From: Blepharisma japonicum | Taxonomy: Eukaryota; Ciliophora; Heterotrichea; Heterotrichida; Blepharismidae | Direction: 5' to 3' | NCBI GenBank assembly: GCA_949751835.1 | Contig: CATKHK010000123.1 | Span: 1 to 64,000 of the forward strand | DNA: 64,000 bases | Part shown: one piece after another, positions 26,880 through 61,152 of the stretch | Position numbering within the stretch: position 1 is the first letter of the stretch | Layout: each line of letters starts with the position of its first letter | The notes under the pieces: generated by a model | What the model was told of the DNA's origin: nothing | Databases searched by the model: none | The model's input: the letters and a program-made list of their open reading frames with translations, nothing else | Made by a program: the position numbers and the translations under genes

Positions 26880-28013
26880 TTATTGTTTTAGGGCTAAAAG
26901 TGAAGATTCATTATTTTTGATCCATGGATGATTCAATGCATCTGCAGCTGTAATTCTTGTCTTATAATCGTATTTAAGCATTTTACTAAGCAAATCTATG
27001 AGTTCACTTGAAGTAAAGTCTCAGTCACTCCCTTCAAAGTTGATCACTCTTTTGTACTCTTCTTTTAGATCTGTCACATTTTTCCCTTTAAATGGAAGTT
27101 TCCCTTGGACGATAGTGTATAAAATAACTCCTAGACTCCAAATATCGCTAGCAAGCTCATTATAATTTCCCTTTAGAATTTCAGGAGCCATATAACACGT
27201 CTAAATAAAACTTACCACTTTATTAGCTCTCACATTTTGTTTTATTTCTCAAGGATAAGCAAAGCCTAAGAGTTTAATAACATTTCCTTCTTTGGTATTT
27301 ATATTAATTTTCCCAAAATTTATCCCCAAGTGAGGAATCCCGTTTTGATGGCAATAATTTAGACCACTTAAAATTTCTCGCATTATTGAACTCGCTTGAG
27401 AGTATCCAATATTTTCATGATGTACTTTTTCGGCCAGGCTGAGCCCAGACAAATATTCATATACTAAAAAAAAGCTTTCTCCTAATTCATAAACATCATA
27501 GAGTTTAACAACATTTGGGTGGTCCTAAATTAAATTTACAATGGTTTGAAACTTTTGAATTTCCTTAATAAATTCATCATAAACTGCTTCAAATATGGCT
27601 GATTTTTTGACTTCTTTAATGATTTTTTTTACCCTGGTTCTTTTATCACTGACTAAGGAAATGCTATCAGTATAATCGAGTAGCCGTTTTTTTATTGTCA
27701 AAAAATGCTCTCTTAAAGGAGTCTTTAAAAATTTCTTAAAAAACTGTTTGTTTTGGCTCCTAGAAAAATTTTGCGGACTTGGATTAGCTGATTGAGTTTT
27801 TTGAGTTTTGGGGTTGCGTGGTTTTCTATCAATTGACGTAAAACCTCTCGAGCGTCTTCGTATTGGTAGATTAGTCATAGTTTTGCTTCTCTTATTTATA
27901 GGAGCTGATTTAAATTCTTTCTCATCATCGATTTCTTCTCTCAAAGATTCTGTAGTTGTAAAATTTTGTTCTTTTTCAATAGAATCATTCTCGTTTGAAG
28001 AGCAACAGCCCAT
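26880..28013 (-). CDS. CDPK-like pseudokinase 1, lacking EF-hands
   Basis: Three exons (28013-27540, 27524-27216, 27200-26880) separated by 15-nt introns (gtaaatttaatttag at 27539-27525; gtaagttttatttag at 27215-27201) give 367 residues. The N-terminus [10 protein letters not shown] carries a myristoylation glycine and palmitoylatable cysteines. The kinase region keeps the Lys of the VAIK position (IIKEVKK), the helix-C Glu (EIQKFQ), MAPEIL and [19 protein letters not shown] reads HLGINFGK and DFG reads GFA, so no phosphotransfer is expected. Unlike the other ten, it stops at TAA 26880-26882 shortly after the final kinase helix ([17 protein letters not shown]). The whole calcium-sensor half is missing, without a trace downstream. 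It is the outermost, left-end copy. Confidence 0.82.
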
Positions 28014-30066
28014 TTATTATTTGATTTAAAAGAGCTTTTAAAATCTAAAAATAAAAAAAATGCATCAAAAAATTTGTGTGATTAGTGTAAAAATTTCGTA
28101 ATCGTTAAGAATAATTTTAATAGCTCAGATCTGGCTATAATTTATTTAATACCTTTTGGCAAATATTTAATAAATGGAGACTTATCGGGAAGATAATTTT
28201 AAAGACTTCTATTAGGGAAACAAATAAATAATATAAGAAAAATATGAGAAACAACTAGCCAAGTGTATTTTTAAGTAAACGTATGATAACATAAACGATT
28301 AACAGATAGCAAAAGTAATAAATATTTGATAAGTTTTAGATAATGTAACTTGATTATTTCAAAGATATTTTGCTTTAAAGTTTTAAAAATTTAAATAAAT
28401 AATTTTTTTTTATACTAAATAAAAACAAATAATTTATAAATCATTATCAATTATGTAATCATTTCAATATGACTTGAAAACTGTCTACATTAAATACGGT
28501 ATTTCTATTAATAAATTGATTTTTATAAAAATCAAATTTTCTAAATTTCATTTTAAATGAATTTCTTTATGAAAATTTCGAATAATATATTTTATAGGCT
28601 TTGACTTAAATAAGAAAAATTAATTTAGCTCTTTAAAATAAGATTTTCCGGATATATAGGATCTGATCTCAACCGACAGAAATATTTAAAGATTTTTATT
28701 GTGAATCACTTCATCAAAACTTTAAACATTTTTTCAGATTTTCTAATATTTCAACCAGAACTAGCCACTTTGAATTTTTAATACCAATATCAGAGCTTTT
28801 AAATTTTTATTAAGCGCAATTTAATTCTTAGCGTCAAAAAATTGTTTTTCCTTAAAGAAAGAAATTTGGAAGCTCTTTTTTCCCTATTATTTCATCTTTA
28901 TCAGTATCTAATGCTTTATACGGTAAAATAGTTGACAATTGCGGTTAGGGCTGAAAGAAAAGCTTTGCAAGAAATTTTATTTCCTTCAATTAAGTTTTTA
29001 AAGTTCGCAATTTTTTTAAAGATAAATTGTTTTTTATATAAAATGCTTTGCCAAAAGCAGTCAGTCCCTTCATTATTAATCTTTTTAAGCAAGTTTCGAT
29101 TAAGGTTCTCATAAACCAAAAACCAACTTTGCCGAAACGTAAATACATGCAATTTTATTAAATTTTGGCTGTCCAAATTACCTTGCAAGCTGGGAATTAC
29201 TGATTTTCTACCCAGTTTTATTTTTCTGTAACTAAATATATTTCCTATTCATTGATCAATTTTTGAACTGTTTTGAATTTATTGAAATATATGAATATTA
29301 GAAAAGAGCCATTATAAAAAAAATAGAAAATGCATTTTAATTGCGGAGATATTTATTGTTGCAATATCTGATAAAAGGCTTTACAATTGAATGAGTGATT
29401 TTGCATAAATATATATAGGAAGTATGAAAGCTTTAATATCAATTTTGGAGAGGTTTAGAATTTTTGTAGGTAGTTCTGTCCGATATCAATTTTTATAACT
29501 AAATATGATTATTATATCAAAAAACTATTAATTTAGATGGATATGAGCCATATTACTTAAATTTTCTTATGCAATATGATGCCTTTTCAATTAGATATTG
29601 TAATTTCTCGAATTTTTTAACCTTATTTAAGAATTTTGACTGTTTAGTTCTAGATATAAAATTCTTTAATAAAAATATTTCTTATCATAGTTTAAAAATC
29701 TCAAAAAAAGCTTGAAATTAAATATTCTATTTTTCTTAACTAATTGATATTTTTTAAGGCTAAAAGATATCATGTTTATGCTTAGTTTTATATAGAGCTT
29801 TGTTAAAAAAACTAAAAAGGGAAATTCTCTTACATTCAAATAATTTTTGGCATATTCCATCAAGTAAAAATAATCAATTTGGAATTAATTAGTAATAAAA
29901 TGTATTTAACAACAATTTCTTTATAATCTGCACCTAAGCTGAAGAAGAGTATAAACTTTCAAACTATTTTAGGATTCATAAAAAAACTTTTTAACATTAT
30001 CTAGAAAAGCTTTTCAAGTTAATGTTCTTATTATTCCAAAAAATATAAAACAGATTATTTAAGCTT
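28014..30066. other. 2-kb AT-rich gap; possibly a lost EF-hand region or decayed sequence
   Basis: A minus frame open from about 29270 to 28916 (for example FRQSWFLVYENLNRNLLKK) has no ATG and no known motif. Another at 29863-29666 is A/T-driven. I see no kinase or EF-hand remnants. The rest is featureless. Confidence 0.35.
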
Positions 30067-31726
30067 CTATACATGTCTGTCAGAATTAATTTTTTCACCA
30101 AATAAAAATATTTTGAGTTCTTCAAACGAAATTGTACCTGATTGGTCAGCATCCACTATTCCAAAGAACTGAGCCCATTCTTTAGTTCTTATTCCTTTAA
30201 TGCTTGCCTTTAGCTCTTTAAGACTTAACTGCCCATCTCCACTTTTATCACACAACTTAAAAGCTTTTTCGAATTTTTTCATGTTTTCATCAGTATTTCA
30301 ATCTGTGCAAGCAGTCACAAATTCTGAGAACTCTATATAACCTTTTTTCATCAAGTCAGCACTAGCTAAAATCTTCCTTAGCTTCTTTTGGACTTTAATG
30401 TCTAAATTTTTAGTTTCGTTTAAGATTTCTTCTTTTGTAAGTTGCCCATCTTTATTAGTATCCAAACTTTTAAAAATTTCAATAAACTGACGACTGTCAT
30501 TTTGGTCTGCAAGGTTGACTTTGAAAAACGAAAAAAGCGCTCTTGCAATTTTGTCTTTACAAGTAAAATCTGCGAGGCGATTGATTGCTCCATTATTATC
30601 TGGAGTTGATAGCAAAGATTGATTATTTTTGAGTCATGGGTGCTCAAGTGCATCTTGAACTGTAATCCTTTTATTGCAATCAATTTCAAGCATTTTGCTA
30701 AGAATATCTTTAAATTCCGCGGAGGTAAAAATCCAATTATGCTCATCAAAACTTATCGCTTTTTGATATTCCATGCTAAGATCCATCAAATTTTTTCCTC
30801 TAAACGGAGGCTTCCTTTGAATAATTGAATATAGCAATACCCCAGCACTCCAAACATCAGCAAGTGGATTATAGTCTCCACGGAGTACTTCAGGAGAAAA
30901 GTAACATGTCTATATAAACTTTACCACTTCATTTAGTTTAATTAGATCTTCTATTTCCCAAGGATAAGTAAAGCTCACAAGTTTGCAATTAATTTTCCCC
31001 TCTTTTGAATCTATAATAGCATGTGAAAGATTTATCCCTAAATGAGTTACCCTATTCCTATGGCAATAATTTAAGCCGCTTAAAATATCTCGAATTATTG
31101 TGCATGCCAAAGAAGAACTGATAATTTCATCATCAAGCTTCTCAAGTAGATTCATACCAGAGACATACTCATAAACTAAATGCCAACCCTTTACTGACTC
31201 ATAAACCTCATAAAGTTTGACAATATTTGGGTGATCCTATATTTATTCTTACAAGGCATTGAAATTTTTGTACTTCAAGAATAAAATTTTCTTGTACTTC
31301 CATAGGAACTGATGACTTTTTAACCTCTTTGACAACTCTTTTTAGACCTGTCCTTTGATCGCTAACTAGAGAAGTGTCTCCAGAAAATCCATAATGCAGC
31401 TTTCTGATGGTTGTGTATTTTTCTCTTATTGGAGTTTTTATAAATTCATGCGAAAATCCTTTATTTTGACCGAATGGACTTCTTGGGGAGTTAATGGGTG
31501 ACGCGCTTGTTGATAATGATTTTAGCCTTGAAGTTCCTGGAGATGATCCAGTGGAAGAAAAGCTTCATCGACGATTTCTAGACGGTTGTGGAGAGCTACC
31601 AAGCCTTTTTCTAGATTTTTCTGGAGCTACAATTTTATATTCAATCTCAGATTTCAAAGATTTTGTCGTAGATTCCTGCTGACCATTTTCACTGGTAGGA
31701 TCTGGCCTATCTGAACAGCAACCCAT
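30067..31726 (-). CDS. CDPK-like EF-hand pseudokinase 2
   Basis: Exons 31726-31253, 31236-30925 and 30909-30067, with a 16-nt intron (gtaagaataaatatag) and a 15-nt intron (gtaaagtttatatag), both phase 0, give 542 residues; TGA supplies several Trp. Layout: MGCCSDRPDP acylation signal; disordered basic linker to ~115; kinase-like domain ~115-355; four EF-hand loops at ~412-423 (DTNKDGQLTKEE), ~447-458 (degenerate, DLMKKGYIEFSE), ~483-494 (DKSGDGQLSLKE) and ~515-526 (DADQSGTISFEE). Catalytic motifs are lost: HRD..N is HLG with His in place of Asn (223-230), DFG is SFT (246-248), and the Gly-rich loop is reduced to YGFSGD. The Lys (VVKEVKK), helix-C Glu and SPE/APE motif remain. In active CDPKs, Ca2+ binding to the EF lobes releases an autoinhibited kinase; here the likely output is Ca2+-dependent binding. 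Confidence 0.85.
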
Positions 31727-32675: not shown

Positions 32676-34323
32676 CTATGCGCGGTCTTTTTTACTATAT
32701 TCACCAAATAAAAATATTTTGAGTTCTTCAAAAGAAATTGTGCCTGATTGGTCAGCATCCACTATTCCAAAGAACTGAGCCCATTCTTTAGTTCTTATTC
32801 CTTTAATACTTGACTTTAGCTCTTTAAGACTTAACTGCCCATCTCCACTTTTATCACACAACTTAAAAGCTTTTTCGAATTTTTTTATATTTTCATTAGT
32901 ATTCCAGTCTGTGCAAGCTGTCACAAATTCTGAAAATTCTATGTAGCCTTTTTTAATCAGTTCAGCGTTCGCTAAAATCTTTCTAAGTTTTTTTAGGACT
33001 TTAATATCTAAATTTTTAGTTTCGTTTAATATTTCTTCTTTTGTAAGTTGTCCATCTTTATTAGAATCCAAATTTTTAAAAATTTCAATAAACTGACGAC
33101 TGTCATTTTGATCTGCAAGGTTGACTTTGAAAAACGAAAAAAGTGCTCTTGCAATTTTGTCTTTACAAGTAAAATCTGCGAGGCGATTGATTGCTCCATT
33201 ATTATCGGGAGTTGATAGCAAAGACTGACTGTTTTTGAGTCATGGGTGTTCTAATGCATCTTGAACTGTAATCCTTTTGTTATAATCAATTTTAAGCATT
33301 TTACTAAGGATATCTTTAAATTCATCGGAGGTAAAAATCCAATTATTTTCATCAAAATTAATTCCTTTCTGATACTCATATTTAAGATCCATCAAAATTT
33401 TCCCTTTATATGGAGGCTTTCTTTGAATAATTGAATATAGCAAAATTCCAACGCTCCAAATATCAGCAAGCGGACTATAATTCCTATTTAGCACTTCAGG
33501 TGCCAAAAAGCATGTCTATATAAAATGTACCACTTCATTTAGTTTAATTTGGTCTTCTATTTCTCAAGGATAAGTGAAACCTATAAGTTTGCAATTAATC
33601 TTTCCATCTCTTGAATCCACAATAATATGAGAAAGATTTATTCCTAAGTGGATAATCTTATTTTTATGGCAATAATTTAAGCCACTTAAAATATCTTGCA
33701 TTATTGTGGACGCCAATGAGCAGCTAATAATTTCATCGTCAAGCTTCTCAAATAAGCTAATTCCAGAGACATACTCGTATACTAAATGTCAGCTTTTTCT
33801 TGATTCATATATTTCACAAAGTTTTATTATATTTGGATGATCCTAAATTTATTCTTACAAGGCATTGAAATTTTTGTATTTCAAGAGTAAACTTTTCTTG
33901 TACTTCCAATGGTACGGATGATTTTTTGACTTCTTTTATTACTCGCTTTAGACCTGTTATTTGGTCGGTCACTAAAGAAGTGTCTCCAGTAAAACCATAA
34001 TGTAATTTTCTGATAGTTGTGTATTTTTCTCTGACTGGAGTTTTTATAAATTCATATGAAAATTCTTTATATTGGCCAGATGGGCTTCTTGGAGATGATG
34101 CAGATGCTGATCAGGATTTTGACTTTGAATATCTTGGAGATAACCTATTTGATAAAAAGCTTCCATGGCGACTTTTTGGCAGCTTTGACGAACTATTGTT
34201 CCTTTTGATAGAAGTTTGTGGAGCAACAACTTTATATTCTATCTCAGATTTCAAAGCTTTTGTTGTGGATTCTTGCTGACTCTTTTCATTGGTAGGATCT
34301 GGCCTGCTTGAGCAACAGCCCAT
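32676..34323 (-). CDS. CDPK-like EF-hand pseudokinase 3
   Basis: Exons 34323-33859, 33842-33531 and 33515-32676 with a 16-nt (gtaagaataaatttag) and a 15-nt intron (gtacattttatatag) give 538 residues. This is the closest relative of copy 2: long stretches of the calcium-sensor half are identical (for example KIARALFSFFKVNLADQNDS), so duplication or conversion was recent. N-terminus is MGCCSSRPDP. The HRD position reads HLGINLSH, DFG reads GFT, and APE is retained as LAPEVL. EF-hands 1, 3 and 4 are canonical; the second starts with Glu in place of Asp (ELIKKGYIEFSE). The C-terminal tail GEYSKKDRA differs from copy 2. Confidence 0.85.
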
Positions 34324-35439: not shown

Positions 35440-37077
35440 TTAGGGTATCGTATTGCTTTTAGTTAATACTGAATTTATAGTACTCTGGTTTTCACCAAAT
35501 AAAAATGTTTTCAGTTCTCCCAAAGAGATTGTACCAGACTGATCAGAATCCACAACTCCAAAAAAATTTTTCCAATCTTTATGACTAATCCCTTCAAAGC
35601 TCGCTTTCAAGCTCCGTACATTAATCTGCCTACTTTCAGTTAATTCACAATTATTTAACACTTTCCCTACTTTTTTCAGATTTTCTTCAATATTTCAATC
35701 AGTGCAAGCTGCTATAAATTCTGAATATCCAATATACCCTTTTTCGAAGAAATCAGAGCTGCTTAGAGCCCATTCAAGTTTTGCTTGCTTATTAGTATCT
35801 ATTTTTTTGGTTTCACTCAAAAACTCTTCTTTTCCTATTTTTTCGTCTTTATCAGTATCCAAGCTTTTATAAAGTTCAATCAGCTGATAATTGTCGTTTT
35901 GATTTACAAAGACCGCTTTAATAAAAAACTCTCTTGCAATTTTATTTTTACATACAAATTTTCTAAAGTTTTTTATTGCCGCCTTATTTTCCAATGTTGA
36001 GGCCAGAGGCTGGTTATTGTTTATCCATGGGTGATTTAATGCATCTTTTACAGTAATTCTCTTCTTATGGTCGTATTCAAGCATTTTTCTAAGTAAGTCA
36101 TCAAATTCGCTTGAGGTAAAAATTCAATAATTTTCCTCAAGATCAATCCCTCTTTTATATTCCAATTTAAGATCATTTAGAGTTTTTCCTCTGAATGGGG
36201 GTTTTCCTTGGACAATAGAATATAGCATCACTCCAAGGCTTCAAACATCGCTAGCTGGCTGGGTAAAATCTCCATCAATGATCTCAGGAGCCATATAGCA
36301 GTTTACTATTTCATTGGCATTAACTCTATTTTCTAGTTCTCAAGGACTAATAAAACCAATAATTTTATTAAATTTTCCTTCTCTTGTGTTCTGTATGACT
36401 TTTCCTAGGCTTAGTCCTAAATGATAAATTCTGTTCAGATGGCAGTAATTTAAACCACTTAAAATGTCCCTGATAATACTGCATGCTAGAGAGTAGCCTA
36501 TTCTTTCATTGCTAACTTTTTCAAGCAGACTGCCTCCAGAAAGATATTCATATACTAAATTTCAACTTTTGCTTGATTCGTAAACTTCTTTAAGTTTAAC
36601 TATATTTGGGTGGTCCTAATTTATCCTTACAAGGCTTAAGAATTTTTGAGTTTCCAAAATAAACTTTTCCTGCAATTCTAGTGGGATGGATGACTTTTTA
36701 ACCTCTTTTATAACCTGTTTTAGTCCTGTTCTTTTATCAATCACTAAAGAAACATCTCCATTACTCCCATGATGTAGTATTTTTATTGTGGTATAGTTTT
36801 CCCTGATTGGAATTTTAATAAAGTTTTTAGCTTTGCCAAGAATATCATTTTGAGAACTTTTGCTTTGAAAATTTTCTGATTGCACTCTATGTGATTTTAT
36901 GCGGCGGAGACTTCGTGAGGGTGCAATTAAATGCTTAAGGCACTTTTTTTGCTTTTTGCTAATCTTTTTTGTATGAGTCGTGGAAGATGAGGTGTCTTCG
37001 TCCATTTCTGGCTCAGTGGAAGTATTCGAATTCTCTTTTTTATGACTAGATTCTAATCTATCCGAACAGCAGCCCAT
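35440..37077 (-). CDS. CDPK-like pseudokinase 4, divergent, one intron lost
   Basis: Exons 37077-36631 and 36615-35440 with a single 15-nt intron (gtaaggataaattag) give 540 residues. The second intron present in every other copy is missing: the frame reads directly through NANEIVNCYMAPE. N-terminus MGCCSDRLES. The HRD position reads HLGLSLGK and DFG reads GFI. The calcium sensor is eroding: EF1 has Glu in place of the loop Gly (DTDKDEKIGKEE), EF2 is degenerate (DFFEKGYIGYSE), EF3 has lost its ligands (NCELTESRQINVR), and EF4 is nearly canonical (DSDQSGTISLGE). This is the most diverged full-length copy and may bind little Ca2+. Confidence 0.82.
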
Positions 37078-38620: not shown

Positions 38621-40321
38621 ATGGAACTAATGAGGTGTTTCGAGCTAGGGTGCAGCAGTGAGGCTGAATTTGCATGCTCATGCACTTCTCCTGAAACTTT
38701 ATCATGTGAACTGCACGTCATGAAGCATATGAAGCTCACTAACAATGCTCATGCTTTTGATTCGATTTTTAAAGAGCCATGCGAAGAGACAAAAGAAGCA
38801 ATTATCAGCTTTCTTGCAGAAAAAGTGTTGAAAAATACCGAGCTTAAAGGGAAAATCTTAGAATCCTTTAGCCAGTGTGTGCTTGAATCAAAGAATCAGA
38901 TCGAAAAACTCTTAAAAATTCTGGATTCAGACTCAGTAGAAATTAGCAATTATTTTACAAAAATTGCTCAAACTCGAAAAATATCAAAATCTGAAGAAGA
39001 TCCAGTTTTAGGACTATTGATTTTGCAGCCTGATGAAGCTGTTGAGAAATTAAAAATGCTGTCTCCAGCCTTTTCAGACTGGGACAGTGAAAAATTATTT
39101 TGTGGATTCAGCGAAAAAATTGAGGAAATATTTGGATACTTTTATAAATTCAAATTTAGCGATTATTTAGATAAAATACTTTTTAGTATAGAAAGAACTA
39201 TTGAAATGCATAATAAAATTGTCAATGAAGAGCATAAAAAGATTATCACTTTGATGACTGAGGAGCTAGCAAATATCAAGGAATCCCTCGCTAAACTAAT
39301 AAAAGAGGATAAAAATAGTGATTGAGACTGAGAAAAAATAAAGCTGAAATATGAAAACAAAATGGACACGCTTAATAATGGTGAAGGTTTCAACGAAGAG
39401 CCAAATAAAGCTTTAAAATCTCAAAAGATCCTTCAAGAATTAATAGACAAAAGAGCAGAAATTTTAAATAAGCCAAATGACCCAAAATTAGAGCAAGATT
39501 TTAGAAAAACCTGCTCAAAATATGGAAAGAATGCATGCAATTATGATCCACCTCTTCAGCAAGCTTATCAAGATTATATTAACGCTTATCGCCAGAAAAC
39601 ATCTCTTTTTACAATCATAGATGGTAAAAATTTGCATGTTTATGACACAGAAAATGAAAGTAAAGAAATTAGGCAAGTAAATGCTTCAGCGCTAGGAAGT
39701 GAAGCATGCATTGCTCAACTGCCTAATGGTAATTTATTTTGTTTTAAAGGCCGAACATTGATAATTGATGAGAATTATAAAGTTCAGGAGCTGCCATCTG
39801 AATATCCTTGCTCCTATTCATCAGCTATCTATTTCAATAATCATGTTTATTGCTTTGGAGGGGAACATGGTTGTACTACAACACTATCAAGTAAATTTGA
39901 TTTGAATGAAAGTCTTTGGATCGAGCTAAATCCAATGCCAGGAGCTGATAAACTTTGCACTTGTGCAATATTTAATGGAAATATTTTGATTTCTGGAATG
40001 CAAAAATATCTTTTTCGATATATAATTGGCCGCAACGAATTCAAGACAATTCCTTATAACTTTAAGGCTCAAACAAGAAAAATTCTAATAAGTTCAGAAA
40101 GGGCATATTTAATTGAATGCTACGGGTCAGTCTATGAAAGTGAAGTTTCAAATGATAATGTCTGGAGACCGATTGGAGACTCAATAATAAGTGATAATCT
40201 TTATCAAGTTTATCTGACATACAACAATGGAGGAATAAACATTGCAGGACATATTGGCGGCAATGGTATTAGACGCTACAAGTTTAATTTGCAAGAAAAA
40301 ATACTAACTGTGCTATCTTAA
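38621..40321 (+). CDS. B-box-like zinc-binding, coiled-coil and kelch-type protein
   Basis: ATG 38621 to TAA 40319-40321, 566 residues; two TGA at 39323 and 39329 read as Trp link the halves in one frame, without introns. Residues ~6-45 have a Cys/His pattern (CFELGCSSEAEFACSC, then C-E-L-H ... H-M-K), similar to B-box-like fingers. Residues ~50-265 are helical/coiled coil (HKKIITLMTEELANIKESLA). Residues ~320-566 form kelch or galactose-oxidase-like beta repeats (HVYDTENESKE, VYCFGGEHGC, LWIELNPMPG). The overall plan is that of TRIM/kelch adaptor proteins without a RING, so a substrate-binding or scaffold role is likely. It is a plus-strand gene inside the minus-strand kinase array and ends ~80 bases from the 3' end of copy 5. 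Confidence 0.72.
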
Positions 40322-40399
40322 TTAAGTCGCTTATTAAATAGAGACCTAATTAAATAAATTTTGTTTTAAAAAATCTTCCTATTTTTTGTCATAAACTAG

Positions 40400-42214
40400 C
40401 TATATACGATTTGCAGTGGTACAATTTCCACCAAACAAAAATTTTTTAAGTTCTTCAAAAGTGATTGTTCCTGACTGATCAGTATTCACACTTGCAAGAA
40501 ACTCTGCCCATTCTTTATTGTTAATCCCTTTAATACTTTCTTTGAGTTCTTCAACACTTAGCAGCCCATCTCCACTTTTATCACAAAGCTTAAATGCTTT
40601 CTCAAATTTTTTCAAGTTTTCATCAGTATTTCAGTCTGTGCAAGCCGTTGAAAATTCTGAAAATTCTATATAGCCTTTTTGCATAAGGTCAATATTTTCT
40701 AAAATCTTTTCAAGATCTTTTTTTACCTCAATATCTAAATTTTTAGTTTCATTTAAAAGCTCTTCCTTTGTGATTTGTCCATCTTTATTAGTATCCAAAC
40801 TTTTAAAAATTTCAATAAACTGTCGACTTTCGTTGTGGTTTGTAAGATTAACTTTGAAAAATGTAAAAATCGCTTTTGCAATCTTATCTTTAGAGGTAAA
40901 TTCTACAAGGCGAGTGATTGCTCCATTATTAGCAGGTGTTGAAAGCAAAGATTGATTATTTTTGACTCATGGATGATTTAATGCATCCTTAATACTAATC
41001 CTATTATTGTAGCCAAATTCAAGCATTTTTCTAAGCAAATCTTTTAATTCGCTTGAAATAAAAACCCAATAATTATTTTCAAAATTAATCCCTAATTTGT
41101 ATCCATCTAGGAGTTCTCTAGAGCTTATTCCTTTAAATGGAGGTTTTCCTTGAATCATTAAATATAAAATAACTCCAGCACTTCAAATATCACTTGCAAA
41201 ATTATTATAAAACCCACTTAATACTTCTGGAGACATATAGCAAGTCTATATGAAATTTACCACTTCTTTTAGATTAATTTGGTCTTCAATCTCTCAAGGA
41301 TAAGAAAAACCAATTATTTTGCAATTAATCTTCCCATCATTTGTATCTAAAATTATTTTTTCAAGATTTAGCCCTAAATGTATAATTCTGTTCCTATGGC
41401 AATAACTTAGCCCACTTAAAATATCCCTTATTATACTGCATGCCATTGAGGTCCCAATGCTTTCGTTTCGAATCTTATAGAGTAAATTGCTTCCAGGTAA
41501 GAACTCATAAACTAAAGACCAGATTTCTTCTGTTTCATAGACTTCGTGAAGCTTGACTATGTTTGGGTGATCCTATATTATTTTTACAAGGCATTGAAAT
41601 TTCTGAATTTCCAATATATATTTTTCTTGAGCTTTTATCGGTATTGATGATTTTTTAACTTCTCTTATAACCTTTTTAACCCCTGTTCTCCTGTCATTTG
41701 CCAAAAAAGTTTCTGCATAAATCCCGGAATTCAACTTTCTGATAACTGAGTAATTTTCTTTAATAGAGGTTTTTAAAAATTTATGAGAGAAGTCTTCATT
41801 AAACAGGTCACGAGGAGATTTAGCTCGAGAAGGTTTTGTTGAGGCTCTTTTTAAGGTCTTTAATTGGGATGGGCTTTTTGGTGATGAAGGGCTTGAGGAT
41901 ATATTTCTTGAATGTCTCTTAGACATTTTAAACCTTTTATTTGATGTTTCTGGGGCAACTATTTTGTACTCGATTTCTGAGACTAGTTCTAAGGTCTTTA
42001 ATTGGGATGGGCTTTTTGGCGATGAAGGGCTTGAGGATCAATTTCTTGAATGTCTCTTAGATATTTTTGGCGACCATTTTGTATTTAACTTTCTATTCGA
42101 CCTTTCTGGGGCTATTATTTTGTAGTCAATTTCTGACCTCAACGATTTTGTTGATGCTTGTGTTTGACCCTTTTCACTGGCGGGGTCTGGTCTTTTAGAG
42201 CAGCAGCAACCCAT
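40400..42214 (-). CDS. CDPK-like EF-hand pseudokinase 5, with duplicated N-terminal tail
   Basis: Exons 42214-41588, 41572-41261 and 41245-40400 with 15-nt introns (gtaaaaataatatag; gtaaatttcatatag) give 594 residues, the longest copy. The extra length comes from an in-frame duplication of about 60 residues in the tail: the pattern EIxYKIxAPE..., KRHSRN..SSPSSPKSPSQ occurs at ~29-76 and again at ~80-127, the first with Trp from TGA. N-terminus MGCCCSKRPDP. HRD reads HLGLNLEK and DFG reads GFS. EF1 and EF3 are canonical (DTNKDGQITKEE, DKSGDGLLSVEE), EF2 is degenerate, and EF4 starts with Asn (NTDQSGTITFEE). Confidence 0.84.
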
Positions 42215-45346: not shown

Positions 45347-46333
45347 ATGGATATTCAACAACAAATTTTTCAACTCTTTTCAAACCCTAAAACTACCTTA
45401 TCATTATATTTAGCTATCGAGCTAAATATTATTAAAAATTTGTCAGTTCCAAAACTTACAGCAGAATTATTAGAAATTATATCAATTCCTCTAGAGAAAT
45501 TGCAAAGTCTCTTAGAAATCCTTAGCTCTCTTAGAATCCTATCAATTGATGAACAAAATCAATGGGCCAATACACTTTTATCTTCTTTATTTATCAATGA
45601 AAATTTACAAAATATTACAAGACAAGTAATTAATCCTTTAAATTATGAATTTGAAGCTTGCTTAGAAGACTTATTGAGCAATAGCATAACTTTAATAAAC
45701 CAAAAATATGGAATTTCAATGCATGAAGAGTTTATTAAAATTCCTGATCATATATCAGCATTATTCAATGCAGGAAAAGAAGCTTCTACATTATATCCTC
45801 AACCTCTCCAATTTTCAGCTATCGATCTTAGCAGCTGCAGAAGGGTTTTAAGCATAGGCGGAGGTAACAGCAACACTTTAATACACCTTTGCTTTTTAAA
45901 TCCTCATATATCAGGAACAATTTTTGATGACGAATCCCAATGTGATGCTGCACAAATAAATATTCAAAAAAGTAATCTTCGAGAGAAAATAGACACCATG
46001 AATGGGACATTTTTAGAGCCATTTCCAGAGGATTATGACTGCATCATAATAGAGAATTTTTTGAAAAATTCTGAACGGATTTGTAAGAAAATATTAGGAA
46101 ATTGTAGAATGTCATTAAATCCAGGGGATCTTTTAAAGATTATTGATTATGTTATAGTTGAATCTAGCCCTTTATGGGATTTTACGAAATCATTAAAATT
46201 GGATATATCAGCTCTTGGACTCAAAGAGATAACACAACAGCATGTTGAAAATTACCTTTATGAGGCTGGATTTAGATTTGATAGGATTATTTCTATAGGA
46301 GAAAATTTCTTAATAAATGCAACCGCAATCTAA
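45347..46333 (+). CDS. SAM-dependent O-methyltransferase (COMT/acetylserotonin-type)
   Basis: ATG 45347 to TAA 46331-46333, 328 residues, no introns or TGA. Residues ~1-90 resemble the N-terminal winged-helix dimerisation domain of small-molecule O-methyltransferases (TTLSLYLAIELNIIKNL, then ELLEIISIPLEKLQSLLEIL). Residues ~150-320 are a Rossmann-type methyltransferase: motif I CRRVLSIGGGNSNTLIHL, an acidic residue in TIFDDES, motif around NGTFLEPFPEDYDCIIIENF, and PGDLLKIIDYVI (motif IV/V-like). The usual third Gly of motif I is Asn/Ser, so activity is likely but not certain. It would methylate a hydroxyl group of a small metabolite, unidentified. A decayed copy sits in the equivalent place upstream of array gene 9. 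Confidence 0.75.
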   Translation: MDIQQQIFQLFSNPKTTLSLYLAIELNIIKNLSVPKLTAELLEIISIPLEKLQSLLEILSSLRILSIDEQNQWANTLLSSLFINENLQNITRQVINPLNYEFEACLEDLLSNSITLINQKYGISMHEEFIKIPDHISALFNAGKEASTLYPQPLQFSAIDLSSCRRVLSIGGGNSNTLIHLCFLNPHISGTIFDDESQCDAAQINIQKSNLREKIDTMNGTFLEPFPEDYDCIIIENFLKNSERICKKILGNCRMSLNPGDLLKIIDYVIVESSPLWDFTKSLKLDISALGLKEITQQHVENYLYEAGFRFDRIISIGENFLINATAI

Positions 46334-46552: not shown

Positions 46553-48226
46553 CTATGCTTGATTCTTAGTAGTGTAATTATCGCCAAATAGGAAATTTTT
46601 AAGCTTTTCAAAAGATATTGTTCCTGAGGGATCAACATGAATATTTTCAAAGAACTCAGCCCACTCGCTAGCTCTAATCCCTTTAATGCTAGCTTTTAGC
46701 TCTTTAAGACTTAACTGTCCATCTCCACTTTTATTCCAAAGCTTAAACGCTTTTTCAAATTTTTTTATGTTTTCATCAGTATTTCAGTCTGTGCAAGCTG
46801 TCGCAAATTCTGAAAACTCGATATATCCTTTTTTCATAAGATCTGCACTCTTTAAAATTTTCTTTAGCTTATTTTGGACTTTAATATCTAAATTTTGAGT
46901 TTCGTTTATTAGCTCTCTCTTAGTGATCTGTCCATCTTTATTAGTATCCAAACTTTTAAAAATGTCTATGAACTCGCGATTATCATTTTGTTCTGCAAGG
47001 TTGACTTTGAAAAATGAAAAAAAGGCCTTTGCAAATTTGTCTTTGGATGTAAATTCTACAAGCCGGTTGATTGCTTCATTATTGGCTGAGTTTGAAAGCA
47101 ATGATTGATTATTTTTGACCCATGGATGATTCAATGCTTCCTTAATACTAATTCTTTTATCGTAGTCAAACTCAAGCATTTTGATAAGCAAATCCTTCAA
47201 TTCACTTGAGTCAAGCAGCCAATCTGATTCTTCATAAATAATCCCTCTCTTATAATCATTGAGAAGAGCTTCCCTGCTTTTTCCATGAAATGGAAGCTTT
47301 CCTTGGATCATTGAATATAAAATGACTCCAGCGCTCCAAATATCACTAGCAAACTTATTATAAATTCCATATAAGATTTCAGGAGCCATAAAGCATGTCT
47401 ATATGAAATTTACCACTTCATTTATTTTAATTTGATCTTCCAGCTCTCAAGGAAAAGTAAACCCAGTAATTTTGCAATTATTCTTTCCTTCGCTTGAATC
47501 TAAAATAATTTTTTCGAGATTCAACCCAAGATGGCAAGTTCTGTTCCTATGGCAATAATTTAAACTGCTTAAAATATCTCGGATTATGGCTGACGCTAAT
47601 TTGCTTCCAATGCTTCCATTATTAATCTTATCGAGTAAATTGTTTCCAAGCAGGTACTCATAAACTAAGGACCATTTTTCTCCTGATTCATAGACTTCAT
47701 GAAGCTTAACAATATTTGGATGATCCTAATTTATTCTTACAAGGGATAAAAATCTTTGAATTTTTATTATTAATTGTTTTTGAGAATTTTTCTGAATTGC
47801 TGATTTTTTGATCTCTTTTATGGCCCTTTTAATACTAGTTCTTTTATCGTTTACTAATAAAATATCGCCATAAAATCCTAAATGCAATTTCCTGATTGTG
47901 GTAAAATTTTCTTCAACTGGTGTTTTTAAAATTAGCTCAGATAAATCTATACTATGTTGGCTATTTGAGGGGGTGGGTCGAGAACCCTTTATTGAGACTG
48001 TTTTTAAAAACGATGGCCTCGATAAAGTTTTTGAAGATGAAGAACCCGAAGATAAATCCCCAGTGTCTTGACTTGAGAGCCGTGGCAAGCGCTTTTTTTT
48101 ATTTCTTTCTTCAGGATTTTCTGAATTAAGTGCTTTCTTGTCGATTTCTAACCTCAATGATTTTGTTGAAGTATATCCTTTATTTTTTTCACTAAGGTCT
48201 GACCTTTTAGAATAGCAGCAGCCCAT
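46553..48226 (-). CDS. CDPK-like EF-hand pseudokinase 7
   Basis: Exons 48226-47741, 47725-47414 and 47398-46553 with 15-nt introns (gtaagaataaattag; gtaaatttcatatag) give 547 residues. N-terminus MGCCYSKRSDL. HRD reads HLGLNLEK, DFG reads GFT, and MAPEILYG and SDIWSAGVILY are intact. The sensor is partly damaged: EF1 is DTNKDGQITKRE (last ligand Glu retained, preceding residue basic), EF3 begins with Asn (NKSGDGQLSLKE), and EF4 has lost its first ligand and final Glu (HVDPSGTISFEK). Ca2+ affinity is therefore probably lower than in copies 2, 3 and 8-11. Confidence 0.83.
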
Positions 48227-49345: not shown

Positions 49346-49555
49346 AGTCTTATTTACACATTTTGAGATCTCTCCAATGGATCTTAAGATTTAACTCTCA
49401 TTCCACTTTATCTAAAACTTAACGCTTTTCTTATATATTTATATTTTCATCAGTATTGAGCCTAAGAATACAGTAAAGAATTCTCCATAGTCTATCCATT
49501 TAATTTTCAGAAAAAATCTTATAATTTTTACAATATTGACGTTAGCTTAAGATAA

Positions 49556-51231
49556 CTATGCACGATTCTTTTTCATCCAATCTTCTCCGAACAAAAATGT
49601 TTTGAGTTCTTCAAACGAGATCGTTCCTGACTGATCACAATCAACATTTCCAAAGAATTCTGCCCATTCTTCAGCTTTTATGCCTCCAATATTTGCTTTT
49701 AACTCTTCAAGACTTAATTGGCCATCTCCACTTTCATCACAAAGCTTAAATGCTTTTTCGAGTTTTTTTATATTTTTATCAGTATTTCATTCTGTGCACG
49801 CTGTTACAAATTCTGAAAATCCAATATATCCTTTTTTCATAAGTTCATTGTTCTTTAGAATTTTCTGAAGCTTTTCTTGAACTTCAATATCTAAATTTTT
49901 AGTTCCACTTAAGAGCTCTTCCATAGTGATTTGTCCATCTTTATTAATATCCAAACTTTTAAAAATATCTATAAACTCTCTATTTTCGTTTTGGTCTGCA
50001 AGATTGACCTTAAAAAATGAAAAAAGTGCTTTTGCAATTTTGTCTTTAGAGGTAAACTCTATAAGGTTGGTGATTGCTTTATTATTAGTAGGAGATGAGA
50101 GTAAATAATTGCTATTTTTTATTCATGGGTGATTCAATGCGTCCTTAACAGTAATTCTTTTATTGCAGTCAAATTCAAGCATTCTAATAAGTAAGTCTTT
50201 CAATTCATTTGAGTCAAAAATCCATTCCGAATCTTCAAAAAAAGCCCAGCTTTATACTCCTTTAGAAGATCCTCAGAATTTTTCCCTCTAAATGGAGGCT
50301 TTTCTTTAATAATTAAATATAAAATGACTCCAACGCTTCAAATATCACTAGCAGGATTATTATAAACCCCACTGAGTATTTCAGGAGCCATAAAGCATGT
50401 CTATATAGAATTTACCACTTTATTATATTTCACTAAGCCTTTTAACTCTCAAGGATAGGAAAAGCCAATAATTTTACAATTAATTTTCCCATCTTTTGAA
50501 TCCAATATAATTTTTTCAAGATTTAGCCCTAAATGTAAAATTCCATTATTATGGCAATAATTTAAACCGCTTAAAATATCTCGCATTACTGAGCTTGTTA
50601 GCGAATACCCAATAATTTCATTTTGAGCTATCTCAAGCAAATTACTTCCAAAGAAACACTCATAGACCAAACACCATTTTTCTTCTGATTCGTATACTTC
50701 GTGAAGCTTAACTACATTTGGGTGATCCTAATTTATTCTTACAAACCATTGGAATTTTTGGGCTTCCATTATTAATATTTCCTCCTCTTTTTTTTGGATT
50801 GCTGATTTTTTTACCTCTTTTATAACCTTTTTCAAGCTAGTTCTTTTATCATTTGCTAATAAAGTATTTCCATGGAATGCTGACCGCAATATTTTTATCG
50901 TTTTAAAATTTTCTTCAACGGGAGTTTTTAATATTTTCTTCAAAAAATTATCATTAAAATGACTATTGGGTGAGTCAGGATGATAACCTTTTGTTGAAGC
51001 TGATTTTATAGATAATAGTCTGGATGAGGTTCTTGAAGATGAAGTGTTTATAGTTAAACTCTCAGAGCGCTTCTTTGATACCCGAGATTTGTGTTTGTTT
51101 CCTTGTCTCATTTGAGGTGCGTCTGGGACAAACTCAGTATTATTGATTTCTGACCTCAATGACTCAGTTGAAGCTTCAAATTGACCCTTTTCACTTGAAG
51201 GATCAGGTCTTTTAGAACAGCAGCAGCCCAT
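49556..51231 (-). pseudogene. CDPK-like EF-hand pseudokinase 8, frameshifted in a homopolymer
   Basis: Exons 51231-50743, 50727-50416 and 50400-49556 with 15-nt introns (gtaagaataaattag; gtaaattctatatag). The third exon is one base short of the frame: in the A7 run at about 50236-50243 (T7 on the coding strand) one base is missing, between EYKAGL and FEDSEWIFDSNEL. With that base it would be ~548 residues with MGCCCSKRPDP, HLGLNLEK in place of HRD, GFS in place of DFG, and canonical EF3 (DESGDGQLSLEE) and EF4 (DCDQSGTISFEE). The rest is perfectly preserved, so the shift is either very recent or a homopolymer sequencing error. Confidence 0.75.
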
Positions 51232-52264: not shown

Positions 52265-53952
52265 CTATGCGTGATTCCTAATATTACAATTTTCACCAAA
52301 TAAAAATTTTTTGAGTTCTTCAAAAGATATTGTTCCTGACTGGTCATCATCAACTCTCCCAAAGAAATTAGCCCATTCTTCAGCACTAATACCAGATATA
52401 TTTTCTTTTAGCTCTTTAAGACTTAGCTGTCCATCTCCGCTTTTATCACAAAGCTTAAACGCTTTTTCGAATTTTTTTATGTTTTCATCAGTATTTCAGT
52501 CTGTGCAAGCAGTCACAAATTCTGAAAATTCGATAAATCCTTTTTTCATAAGATCTGCATTCTTCAGAATTCTTTTAAGCCTATTTTGGACTTTCTTATC
52601 TAAATTTTTAGTTTCGTTTAAAAGTTCTTCTTTAGTGATTTGACCATCTTGATTGCTATCCAAACTCTTAAAAATTTCTATAAACTGGCGAATTTCATTT
52701 TGGGCTACAAAATTCACTTTGAAAAATGAAAAAAGGGCCCTTGCAATTTTGTCTTTAGAAGAATAGTCTATTAGGCGGTTGATTGCTCCATTATTGTCTG
52801 ATGTTGAAAGTAAAGATTGATTATTTTTTATTCATGGGTGATTCAGTGCATCTTCAGCAGTAATTCTTTTATTGTGGTCAAACTCAAGCATTTTGCTAAG
52901 TAAATCTTTCAGCTCATTTGAGTCAAAAATCCAATTAGTTTCTTCAAAATTAATCTTTCTTTCATAGTCCTTTAGAAGGTCCATCCAATTTTCCCCTCGA
53001 AATGGAAACTTTCCTTGGATAATTAAATATAAAATAACTCCTGAACTCCAAATATCACTAGCAGGATTATTATAAATTCCATTGAATATTTCAGGAGCTA
53101 TATAGCATGTCTATATATAATTTACTGGTTCATTTTTATCTTCTAACTCTCAAGGATAGGAGAATCCAATTATTTTGCAATTAAACTTTCCATTAGTATT
53201 AAGATACAATTATGCATCCCATCATTTGAATCTAAAATAACTTTTTCAAGGTTTAGGCCTAAATGCGCAACTCTGTTCCTATGACAATAATTTAAGCCAC
53301 TTAAAATATCTCTCATGATGGTTTGTGCTAAAGCACTTCCAATAATTTCATTATTAAATTTATGAAGTAAACTGTTTCCAATCAGATGCTCATAAACAAA
53401 AGACCACTTTTTTTTTGACTCATAGACTTCATGAAGCTTTACTATATTTGGATGATCCTAATTTACGCTTACAAGACATAGAAACTTTTGAATTTCCAGT
53501 ATTAGTTTATCCTTCTCTTTTTCTTGAATTATTGATTTTATTACCTCTTTTATAACCTTTTTAAGACCAGTTCTTCGATCAGTAACTATTAAAGTGTCTC
53601 CATAATTTCCAGAATGCAATTTTCGGATCGTTGTAAAGTTTTCTCCAACAGAAATATTTAAAATTTGCTCGGAAAAGTTTTTATTAATTTGACTACTTGG
53701 CGGATTGGGAATCGAAGTCTTTGTTGATGAAGAATTTGAAGATGATATTAAGGATAGAGTGTTTGGAGATGAAGAGCTGAATGATAATCTTTTAGTCCGT
53801 AGCTTTGATATTCGTCTTTTTTTATGCTTTGTTCGAGATAGTTCTTGAGCAATTACTTTCTTGGCCATTTCTAGCTTCAATGATTCGGCTGAAGCGTTTG
53901 ATTTACCCTGCTCACTTGTAGGGTCAGGCCTTTTAGAATAGCAGCAACCCAT
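52265..53952 (-). pseudogene. CDPK-like EF-hand pseudokinase 9, disrupted by a 29-bp insertion
   Basis: Exons 53952-53473, 53457-53126 and 53110-52265 with 15-nt introns (gtaagcgtaaattag; gtaaattatatatag). Exon 2 is 332 bases instead of 312: it lacks three codons before NEP and has 29 extra bases around 53190-53222, just after HLGLNLEKVILDSNDG, which shifts the frame into TAA. The extra sequence looks like an imperfect duplication of the codons for DSNDG..NC. Everything else is intact: MGCCYSKRPDP, EF1 DSNQDGQITKEE, EF3 DKSGDGQLSLKE and EF4 DDDQSGTISFEE. As written it would make a truncated protein of ~235 residues. Confidence 0.78.
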
Positions 53953-55312: not shown

Positions 55313-57007
55313 TTATTTTAATATTACTGTGCTACATTTTGGGATAATAGGATGTTTGCCAAACAAAAATTCCTTGAGTTCTTCAAGAGATATTGTCCCT
55401 GACCGATCATTGTCAACATTTCCAAAGAACTCAGCCCATTCTTTAGACGTTATTCCTTTAATGCTTGCTTTTAGCTCTTTTAGACTTAATTGTCCATCAC
55501 CACTTTTATCGCACAGCTTAAAAGCTTTTTCAAATCTTTTTATGTTTTCATCAGTATTCCAGTCTGTGCAAGCTGTCAAAAATTCTGAAAATTCTATATA
55601 CCCTTTTTCCATAAGTTCAGCTCTCTTTAAAATCTTTTTAAGCCTATTTTGGGTTTTGATATCTAGGCTTTCAATTTCGTTATAGAGCTCTTCCTCACTG
55701 ATTTGCCCATCTTTATTTTTATCTAATTTTTTAAATATTTCAATAAATTCGCGATGGTCATTTTGGTTTGTAAGATTGACTTTAAAATAAGAAAAAAGCT
55801 CTCTTGCGATTTTATCTTTAGAAGTAAATTCTACAAGGCGAGTGATTGCTTCATTATTAGAAGGAGTTAGAGCCAAAGACTGACTATTTTTTTGAATTCA
55901 TGGATGATTCAATGCCTCTTCAACAGTAATTCTTGTATTGTGGTCATAGTCGAGCATTTTACTAAGTAGATCTTTCAACTCGCTTGAGTGTAAAAATCAA
56001 TTTTCTTCATTAAAATTAAATCTTTTGCTATACTCTTTCAGAAGATCCTCTGAACATTTCCCTAGAAATGGAGGTTTTCCTGTTGTCATTGTATATAAAA
56101 TAACCCCAACGCTTCACATATCACTAGCAGGATTATTATAAACCCCATTGAGTATCTCAGGAGCCATAAAGTATGTCTATGTAAAATTTACCACCTCATC
56201 TATTTTTACTAAATCTTCTAATTCTCATGGATAAGAAAACCCAATTATTTTGCAATTAATTTTTCCACCTCGCAAGTCCAAAATAATTTTTTCAAGATTT
56301 AACCCTAAATGGGAAATTCTATGTAGATGGCAATAATTTATACCGCTTAAAATGTCTTGTGTTATTGAGCATGCCAATGATTTCTCAATAAATTCATTAT
56401 CAGCTTTATCGAGCAAACTACTTCCAGAGAAGAACTCATAAACCAAATGTCAGCTTTCTCTTGATTCATAGACTTCAAGAAGCTTAACTACATTTGGATG
56501 ATCCTAATTTATATTTACCAAGCATTGAAATTTTTGGATTTCCATTATAAATTTTGTATGGATATCTGTTGATATTAATGATTTTTTAAATTCTTTAATA
56601 ACTTTTTTTATGTCGGTTCTTTTATCATTTGCAAGCAAAATATCTCCGTAAAATCCTTTATGTAAATTTTTGACTGTTGTGTAATTAATTCTAGTCGGAA
56701 TCTTGAAAAAGCTTTGGGAGAAATCTTCAATGGATAGATTTTTCGGAGAGCTAGCTCGGGATGTCGTTGTAGAGCCTGCTTTTAGAGTTAAATATCTTGT
56801 TCTGCCTCTTGGTGATGAAGGTTGTGAGGATCAATTATTAGTGTGCCTTGTTGAAAGACGTGGTGGACGTTTTGTTCTTTTCCTTCTCATAGGAACTTCA
56901 GGAGATGTAATATCGTTATCAATCTCTGACCTCAGAGACTTAGTCGAAATGCTTGAAAACCCCTTTTCTATTGCTTGATCTGATCTTTTTGAGCAGCAGC
57001 AACCCAT
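55313..57007 (-). CDS. CDPK-like EF-hand pseudokinase 10
   Basis: Exons 57007-56519, 56503-56192 and 56176-55313 with 15-nt introns (gtaaatataaattag; gtaaattttacatag) give 554 residues. N-terminus MGCCCSKRSDQ, followed by a basic patch (MRRKRTKRPPRL) that could reinforce membrane binding. HRD reads HLGLNLEK, DFG reads GFS, and the Lys motif is VIKEFKK, an EF variant shared only with copy 11. EF1 DKNKDGQISEEE, EF3 DKSGDGQLSLKE and EF4 DNDRSGTISLEE are canonical; EF2 is degenerate. The C-terminus is longer than in copies 2-9 (HPIIPKCSTVILK). Downstream gene order (DHHC relic to the right) matches copy 11. Confidence 0.84.
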
Positions 57008-59260: not shown

Positions 59261-59460
59261 TTTTAAAATGTGGCCTAAAATTCGATCAATTATTTTAGAA
59301 TGAAATTTAAGTCTGCATTAATTAAATACCATTAGGAAATAATGCTGTAATTATCCTTCTTGATAAAACTATTTAGTGTGTAGCAATTATATTTAGAAAT
59401 ATTTATAATCAATATTAATAAAAATTTACATGAAGGTTTTTTATTTAGAATATAAGTATA

Positions 59461-61152
59461 CTATTCTGAGATCGCTATACTATATTTTGGACTAATACGA
59501 TTTTTACCAAACAAAAATTCCTTGAGTTCTTCAAAAGAGATTGTCCCTGATCGATCAAAATCAACACTTCCAAAAAACTCAGCCCATTCTTTAGATCTTA
59601 TCCCTTTAATGCTTGCTTTTAGTTCTTTTAGACTTAATTGCCCATCTCCGCTTTTATCGCACAGCTTAAACGCTTTTTCAAATTTTTTTATGTTTTCATC
59701 GGTGTTCCAATCTGTGCAAGCTGTCAAAAATTCTGAAAATTCTATATACCCTTTTTCCATAAGGTCAGAGCGCTTTAAAATCCTTTTAAGCCTATTTTGG
59801 ATTTTGATATCTAGATTTTTAATTTCGCTTAAGAGCTCTTCCTGACTGATTTGTCCATCTTTATTCTTATCTATATTTTTAAAAAGTTCAATAAATTCGC
59901 GATGGTCATTTTGGTTTGTAAGATTGACTTTAAAAAAAGAAAAGAGCTCTCTTGCGATTTTATCTTTAGAAGTAAATTCTACAAGGCGAGTGATTGCCTC
60001 ATTATTAAGGGGAGTTGAAGCCGAAGACCGGCTATTTTTTTGAAGTCATGGATGATTCAATACCTCCTCAACAGTAATTCTTGTATTGTGGTCGTAATTC
60101 AACATTTTACTAAGCAAATCTTCTAACTCATTAGAAGCTAAAATCCAATTTTCTTTCTTAAAAGTTCATCCTTTCCTATACTCTTTCAGAAGATCCTCTG
60201 AACTTTTTCCTCGAAATGGAAGCTTTCCATGTGTCATTACATATAAAATAACCCCTACGCTTCAAATATCACTAGCAGGATTATTATAAACCCCAGTAAG
60301 AATTTCAGGAGCCATAAAGCATGTCTACATAAAATTTACCACTTCATTTATTTTCACTAAATCTTCTAATTCTCAAGGATAAGAAAACCCAATTATTTTG
60401 CAATTAATCTTCTCATTTCTTGAATCCAAAATAATTTTTTCAAGATTTAACCCTAAATGAGGAATTCCATTCCTATGACAATAGTTTAAACCGCTTAAAA
60501 TATCTTCTATTATTGAGCATGCCAACGAATCCCCAATAATTTCATTTGCTTTATCAAGCAAATTACTTCCAGAGAAGAATTCATAAACCAAAAGCCAACT
60601 TTCTCTTGATTCGCAGACTTCAAGAAGCTTAACTACATTTGGATGATCCTAATTTATATTTACCAGGCCTTGGAATTTTTGAATATCCATTATAAATTTT
60701 TTGTGGACATCTGCTTGTATTATTGATTTTTTAAATTCTTTAATAACTTTTTTAATCTCAGTTCTTTTATCATTTACCAACAAAACATCTCCGTAAAATC
60801 CTTTGTGAAGCTTCCTGACAGTCGTGTAATTAATTCTAATCGATGTCTTAAAAAAATTTTGGGAAAATTCATTAGAGGATAGAATTGACGGAGAGTTTGT
60901 GCGAGATGTTTTTGTAGAGGCAGCTTCAAGAGTTTTCAATCCTGCTCTGCCTCTTGGTGATGAAGGCTGCGAAGATCAATTATTAATGCGTCCTGTTGAA
61001 AGTCGTGGCATCCGTTTTGTTTTTTTCTTTCTTATTGGAACTTCTGGAGTTGTAGTATTACTATCAATTTCTGACTTCAGAGATCTAGTAGTCATGCTTG
61101 AAAAACCCTTTTCTATCGTCGAGTCAAGCCTTTTTGTGCAGCAGCAACCCAT
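59461..61152 (-). CDS. CDPK-like EF-hand pseudokinase 11
   Basis: Exons 61152-60664, 60648-60340 and 60324-59461 with 15-nt introns (gtaaatataaattag; gtaaattttatgtag) give 553 residues. This is the sister of copy 10: same basic tail patch (IRKKKTKRMPRL), same VIKEFKK, same extended C-terminus (RISPKYSIAISE). N-terminus MGCCCTKRLDS. HRD reads HLGLNLEK and DFG reads GFS. EF1 DKNKDGQISQEE, EF3 DKSGDGQLSLKE and EF4 DFDRSGTISFEE are canonical. One codon shorter in exon 2 (NLLDKANEIIG). The intact DHHC gene is its upstream neighbour, on the same strand. Confidence 0.85.

Follow-up and report, generated by a model that had tools for sequence, protein, structure and literature searches.

Calcium-dependent protein kinases (CDPKs) can carry an acylated, MGCC-type start, and their EF-hand part shifts when Ca2+ binds. 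Some kinases that miss a standard motif residue remain active; CASK has a CaM-kinase-like domain in which the DFG Asp is replaced by Gly while the HRD Asp is kept, and it shows Mg2+-independent activity. Coccidian rhoptry pseudokinases such as ROP5, ROP24 and ROP45, described here from an extract of PMC3682881, form a lineage-specific kinase expansion, often in tandem, in which many members have lost the catalytic Asp, and PSKH2 is a CAMK-group pseudokinase with an Asp-to-Asn change in HRD (PMC9988210, extract). In ciliates, extracts of the respective papers report a CDPK expansion and 38 kinase-domain genes of Ichthyophthirius that are likely pseudokinases (PMC3341644), about 101 CDPKs in Paramecium tetraurelia (PMC3019232), and, by citation in PMC9371601, a greatly expanded Stentor kinome (10.1101/168187). 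Here, we describe a tandem array of 11 CDPK-like genes of the heterotrich Blepharisma japonicum, in all of which the catalytic motifs are lost. The array lies in a stretch of 64,000 nucleotides (C123:1-64000, contig CATKHK010000123.1 of assembly GCA_949751835.1), which we call the window, and it was compared with the 45.2-Mb genome in 224 contigs. The full-text literature searched, including the available parts of PMC9608856, PMC5371900 and PMC10946202, a scope outside which preprints and most subscription papers fall, yielded no account of CDPK pseudokinases arranged in tandem; the word kinase had no match in the available parts of PMC9942806 or PMC9942856, and the words ciliate, protist and CDPK had none in the review PMC7586955.

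Gene models were read with TGA as Trp and with introns of 15 or 16 nt, both of which are reported for Blepharisma stoltei in the available part of PMC9942806. All 11 genes, numbered c1 to c11, lie on the minus strand, from 61152 down to 26880 (Table 1), and HLG replaces HRD in every one of them. The catalytic loop reads HLGLNLEK in seven copies, HLGINLSH in two, and HLGLSLGK and HLGINFGK in one each; the HRD Asp is Gly in 11/11, and the catalytic-loop Asn is Lys in nine and His in two. At the DFG Asp, nine copies have Gly, one has Ser and one has Arg, with the triplet GFS in five copies, GFT in two and GFA, GFI, SFT and RFS in one each. Thus, none of the 11 copies has any of the three residues of active CDPKs (HRD Asp, catalytic-loop Asn and DFG Asp). 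The Gly-rich loop is also degenerate, its first Gly being gone throughout. D-x-W-S is present in 11/11, the VAIK Lys in 10/11, and the helix-C Glu and APE in 9/11 each (SPE in c2 and c5). H-L-G itself is invariant while its codons vary synonymously. Alternative splicing that restores HRD was considered and rejected: HLG lies within one open exon between two introns of conserved position, and no candidate GTA..AG intron spans it, so the motif is not a splice artifact. Alignment error was rejected as well, as HLG and GF are recovered alike by two MAFFT runs and by pairwise alignment of spliced sequences.

Like CASK (3mfr, among the structure matches of c2), the array has a CaM-kinase-like domain with Gly at the DFG Asp, in nine copies; unlike CASK, it also has Gly at the HRD Asp in all copies and it has an EF-hand region. 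The Asn of PSKH2 recurs in several relatives of the array, but PSKH2 is a single gene with an intact DFG and a loss restricted to primates (PMC9988210, extract), whereas in the array none of the three residues is left. Some rhoptry kinases likewise have a basic residue in place of the Asn, and ROP24 has GFT for DFG; however, rhoptry kinases are not CDPKs but proteins secreted from the rhoptry, and the position of the array's HLG is occupied by HG[RKH] in ROP5 (PMC3682881, extract). The array, in contrast, has acylation-type starts and EF-hands and belongs to a ciliate.

Ten of the 11 copies consist, in order, of a tail, a kinase domain, a junction and an EF-hand region, which, as in the CDPK structures 3lij and 4ieb, lie in one chain; c1 is a kinase domain only. 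Residues 99 to 527 of c2 align to CDPK structures (best E value, 5.5e-70), the closest solved relatives being CDPKs such as 3lij and 4ieb, with which the junction helix of the array can also be aligned. A Pfam scan of three copies (c1, c2 and c7) found PF00069 in all three and EF-hand families in both that have the region; the remaining copies were assigned by alignment. The first intron falls at the same codon boundary in 28 genes, comprising all 11 window copies and 17 dispersed genes, active and not. The second intron lies at one point in 10/11 window copies, and that of 13 dispersed genes is taken as the same point, with columns offset by an alignment gap. By sequence, the array can thus be assigned to the CDPKs by descent and architecture: it has kinase, junction and EF-hands, its nearest structures and paralogs are CDPKs, and introns are held in common. 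The MGCC start found in 11/11 copies is consistent with acylation; it is followed by Ser/Lys-rich sequence, as judged by eye. An in-frame MGC also occurs upstream in 35 of 40 dispersed CDPK loci (absent from L068, L069, L072, L073 and L074), a likeness between the array and its CDPK paralogs. EF loops were scored at ligand positions 1, 3, 5, 6 and 12 wherever the region is present (10 copies), and canonical loops were found in nine copies for EF1, none for EF2 and eight each for EF3 and EF4. EF1, EF3 and EF4 are all canonical in 7/10 copies (c2, c3, c6, c8, c9, c10 and c11), and no copy has four canonical loops. Unlike CDPKs, the array combines the loss of all three catalytic residues with a degenerate EF2.

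Most of what the original prediction had proposed for these genes was borne out: 11 tandem copies were all found where it had placed them, HRDLKPEN has become HLG-type and the DFG Asp has become Gly, Ser or Arg in each, the Gly-rich loop is degenerate, and neither splicing nor alignment restores the HRD Asp. Its claim of a CDPK-like architecture holds for ten copies and not for kinase-only c1. Among the residues that it described as remaining, only D-x-W-S does so in every copy. It also had most copies staying open with conserved EF-hands; 8/11 are open and most EF loops are canonical, but EF2 is degenerate in 10/10 and three of the 11 are damaged or without the EF region.

The array is not alone in this genome. 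A whole-genome search with c2 gave 97 scored rows out of 1014 candidates, 12 of them from the 11 window genes and 85 from elsewhere; the best outside locus is 36% identical, and each window gene except c1 has a higher row. The best 40 of the 85 dispersed rows were examined for catalytic motifs, with the DFG columns of some (e.g., L056, L058, L060, L062, L064, L066 and L072) counted from two mutually agreeing MAFFT alignments. The HRD and/or DFG Asp is missing in 18 of these best 40 loci (L041, L044, L045, L048, L049, L050, L051, L053, L054, L055, L056, L058, L059, L060, L064, L068, L070 and L071), and both are present in 22. When the array is counted in, the HRD and/or DFG Asp is missing from 29 of 51 ciliate genes. 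HLG was found in none of the best 40 dispersed loci, a count made without a genome-wide pattern search for HLG, and exact HRNIRPEN has two matches in the genome, L041 and L044. Among the other 45 rows, 30 lie on contigs C1 to C49, with exact HRDLKPEN in 14, HRDIKPEN in 6 and neither in 10, a result that does not by itself mark those 10 as pseudokinases. In L053 and L054 (contig C42), the HRD Asp column holds an Asp in an altered loop (IQDLNPGH and LYDLNPGH), and the DFG columns are gapped. Further close groups of CDPK-like loci were seen on C3 (518-562 kb), C4 (382-385 kb), C42 (24-30 kb) and C27 (235-239 and 280-284 kb); in the loci examined on C3, C4, C42 and C27 (235-239 kb), a set that leaves out C3:540580, C42:26748 and the C27 280-284 kb group, the HRD and/or DFG Asp is missing throughout.

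A tree of 53 rows (11 window, 40 dispersed and 2 PDB outgroups) was built with the Gly-loop, HRD and DFG columns left out. All window genes fall together with 100/100 support, within an 18-row clade (100/99) that also includes L041, L044, L045, L050, L051, L055 and L071. At the HRD Asp, six of these seven relatives have Asn and L055 has Ser, and the triplet is HRN in four. L050, L051 and L071 are on long branches; in a trimmed tree made by a quick method, from which L050, L051, L056, L059, L067, L070 and L071 were dropped to leave 46 rows, the window genes still group with L041, L044, L045 and L055 (SH-aLRT [Shimodaira-Hasegawa-like approximate likelihood ratio test] support, 100). The nesting of the array with these seven dispersed loci, none of which has the HRD Asp, makes it probable that catalytic loss came before the HLG array, and the simplest order that we infer is Asp to Asn first and then HLG. 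On this tree, the array stands as the most derived lineage within a dispersed and older clade of predicted pseudokinases. Five changes of pseudokinase status are needed on the 53-row tree, four of them forced by starred branches, and three on the trimmed tree, two of them forced. A single origin of the 29 loss-bearing rows was rejected, with a log-likelihood 260.8 lower and a p-AU (approximately unbiased test) of 3.3e-64, in a test whose group was set by motif before the tree, which includes long branches and which shares the model's pull. A grouping of 25 rows, all with losses, has support of only 81/15, and therefore the number of losses is not fixed. Several separate losses among the CDPKs of this genome are nevertheless likely. 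Beyond the array itself, the analysis adds that a single genome likely carries several lines of CDPK pseudokinases, the Asn-type relatives being basal to the HLG array.

To measure selection, the GY94 codon model was fitted pairwise, with an own script, to nine chosen window pairs of the 55 possible, with kinase and EF halves separate. The ratio of nonsynonymous to synonymous divergence (omega) was 0.099 to 0.200 in the kinase half (synonymous divergence [dS], 0.56 to 2.29), and omega=1 was rejected in 9/9 pairs, with a likelihood-ratio statistic of at least 46.9. In the EF half, omega was 0.092 to 0.202 in the eight pairs with EF regions, and omega=1 was rejected in 8/8 (statistic of at least 24.3). 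Nine pairs of active-looking paralogs gave kinase-half omega values of 0.011 to 0.065, at dS values of 1.39 to 11.7 that are in many cases near or past saturation, and four dispersed pseudokinase pairs gave 0.008 to 0.146, with dS above 4 in three. The array genes are under purifying selection, and since their omega is above that of the active paralogs, the constraint is weaker. Of 259 kinase columns, 62 are invariant among the 11 copies, and 18 hold a residue that occurs in at least 10/11 copies and is absent from all 24 active rows (22 dispersed and 2 PDB), a count without a shuffled control. Among these 18 are L-G, N and L in the catalytic loop and P-W-E in the activation segment, and many vary synonymously in codon; we read the 18 as new constraint. 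Taken together, a kinase fold by sequence, the loss of key catalytic residues and maintenance by selection lead us to class the array genes as predicted pseudokinases, in agreement with the original prediction. It had further held that the change is older than the expansion, which fits HLG in all copies of a clade within a wider Asp-loss clade, and that it is not random decay, which agrees with omega far below 1 (values near 1 in all copies were not seen) and with the synonymous variation under an invariant H-L-G. The notion of an isolated tandem oddity, in contrast, did not survive the counts from the dispersed loci.

The rates also bear on the possibility that the array is decaying slowly, a redundant set sustained by duplication and gene conversion in which residual constraint persists and most copies have no selected function. 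Two of the 11 copies are frame-broken, one is truncated and three (c4, c5 and c7) have extra EF losses, all of which would be expected of such an array, as would the raised omega. In c2/c3 (30067-34323), dS is 0.40 in the EF half versus 1.10 in the kinase half, and in c10/c11 (55313-61152) it is 0.31 versus 0.56; the lower EF-half values hint at partial gene conversion, and that of c2/c3 also speaks for slow decay. However, neutrality was rejected in every tested pair (pairwise omega averages over history, so very recent decay is possible), new residues are fixed family-wide, and 8/11 copies are open over about 540 to 590 codons. We consider slow decay unlikely.

On balance, we think it somewhat probable that the array encodes membrane-anchored, Ca2+-switched, noncatalytic regulators or scaffolds derived from CDPKs. 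The MGCC start would be myristoylated and palmitoylated, and the proteins would be placed on the membrane because of this predicted acylation. Binding of Ca2+ to EF1, EF3 and EF4 would displace the calmodulin-like part relative to the dead kinase fold, and this movement may expose or hide a surface that binds a partner, which could be a substrate, a channel or a CDPK that is active. In this view, the proteins would not be phosphotransferases but would serve as scaffolds switched by Ca2+, or would regulate allosterically or by competition. Their history may have run from loss of the catalytic Asp, as in the Asn-type relatives, through rebuilding of the loop to HLG, to tandem duplication and diversification. 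Several observations weigh against this picture: EF2 is lost in all 10 copies that have the EF region, so that Ca2+ may elicit a response unlike the one seen in CDPKs; further EF loops are gone in c4, c5 and c7; c8 and c9 are frame-broken and c1 is without the EF region; and omega is several-fold above that of active-looking paralogs, many of whose dS values are saturated.

The pattern of retained and replaced residues can also be read as a repurposed pocket, in which what was once the active site would bind metal-free nucleotide, or some other ligand, by means of the Lys-Glu pair and of the basic residue at the Asn position, making the protein a sensor or an unusual enzyme. Retention of the beta3 Lys in 10/11 copies and the helix-C Glu in 9/11, the change of Asn to Lys in nine and His in two, and the invariance of HLG despite synonymous codon change are in line with this, and ROP24, ROP45 and ROP48 are reported with a basic residue at the same Asn (PMC3682881, extract). 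The degenerate Gly-rich loop in 11/11, the Lys-Glu pair broken in c5 and c7, and the absence of an acidic residue from the HRD and DFG Asp positions of all copies point the other way, and we find this reading quite unlikely. Highly improbable is that ordinary kinase activity was retained through a shifted catalytic residue: the P-W-E Glu is conserved, and a nearby acidic residue is named as possible compensation in ROP50 and ROP24 (PMC3682881, extract), but this Glu lies six residues away from where the DFG Asp would be, and none of the 11 copies retains the catalytic Asp, the Mg-binding Asn or the DFG Asp.

Apart from c1, c8 and c9, the copies are open through the EF region; c1 is open as a kinase domain only, and c8 and c9 have one break each. 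The break in c8 is one base in a T run in the assembly. The extra stretch in c9 partly repeats neighboring sequence, and a 22-nt GT...AG reading of it was noticed by eye only. That it is an unexcised germline segment (internally eliminated sequence) is unlikely, because reported lengths of such segments in Blepharisma start at about 65 bp (PMC9942856, extract) and the stretch is shorter. In c4, the second intron was not found, and the frame reads through about 36290-36310 with intron-remnant-like residues (IVNCYM for VTCYM). The tree pairs c6 with c8 (98/97) and c7 with c9 (81/80) over 44686-53952, which fits duplication of a two-gene block. Other open reading frames (ORFs) of the window, two of them inside the array, are included in Table 1. 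Telomere units of B. stoltei are permutations of CCCTAACA, in an assembly with 64 telomere-to-telomere sequences (PMC9942806, extract); four consecutive units of the CCCTAACA type have 141 matches in the present genome (62 forward and 79 reverse, overlaps counted), and among the matches listed, the places on contigs whose length is known (C4, C7, C17, C47, C89 and C92) are contig ends.

Table 1. Array copies and other open reading frames of the window
Feature	Positions	Strand	Predicted product	Catalytic loop (H codon from)	DFG triplet	Remarks
c1	26880..28013	-	Kinase-only pseudokinase, 367 aa	HLGINFGK (27332)	GFA	Without EF-hands; PF00069 E 3.3e-46
c2	30067..31726	-	CDPK-type pseudokinase, 542 aa	HLGINLSH (31044)	SFT	PF00069 E 3.2e-41 and EF-hand families
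c3	32676..34323	-	CDPK-type pseudokinase, 538 aa	HLGINLSH (33650)	GFT	
c4	35440..37077	-	CDPK-type pseudokinase, 540 aa	HLGLSLGK (36423)	GFI	EF1, EF2 and EF3 degenerate; one intron found
c5	40400..42214	-	CDPK-type pseudokinase, 594 aa	HLGLNLEK (41380)	GFS	VAIK Lys to Arg
c6	42974..44686	-	CDPK-type pseudokinase, 560 aa	HLGLNLEK (43954)	RFS	
c7	46553..48226	-	CDPK-type pseudokinase, 547 aa	HLGLNLEK (47533)	GFT	Helix-C Glu to Lys; EF3 and EF4 fail loop test; PF00069 E 1.1e-43
c8	49556..51231	-	Array copy	HLGLNLEK (50535)	GFS	Frame broken once in assembly, near 50250
c9	52265..53952	-	Array copy	HLGLNLEK (53265)	GFS	Frame broken by short extra stretch near 53210
c10	55313..57007	-	CDPK-type pseudokinase, 554 aa	HLGLNLEK (56311)	GFS	
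c11	59461..61152	-	CDPK-type pseudokinase, 553 aa	HLGLNLEK (60459)	GFS	Helix-C Glu to Asp
ORF	526..3993	+	1155 aa			Receptor ligand-binding region (PF01094, E 1.2e-24)
ORF	5179..6798	-	539 aa			Endonuclease-reverse transcriptase family (PF14529, E 2.4e-9); possibly retroelement remnant
ORF	7272..8330	+				TPR repeats, very regular
ORF	12062..12838	+				TPR repeats, very regular
ORF	38621..40321	+	566 aa			Inside array; no Pfam match
ORF	45347..46333	+	328 aa			Inside array; O-methyltransferase-like

A wider reading, which we regard as doubtful, is that the heterotrich CDPK fold has several times given rise to Ca2+-gated, membrane-tethered, nonkinase modules, and that in the HLG array the active site was rebuilt into a selected pocket for a ligand or partner, as the invariant HLG, the basic residue in place of the Asn and P-W-E might indicate. 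If this is true, Ca2+ decoding by pseudokinases would be a major signaling mode in a ciliate. Counts of ciliate CDPKs may include many nonkinases. In this one genome, intact CDPKs, Asn-type losses and the rebuilt HLG array stand side by side on one tree, and the path from an enzyme to a noncatalytic calcium protein can therefore be tested stepwise. Overall, the results suggest that "dead" calcium kinases perform regulatory work in this ciliate.

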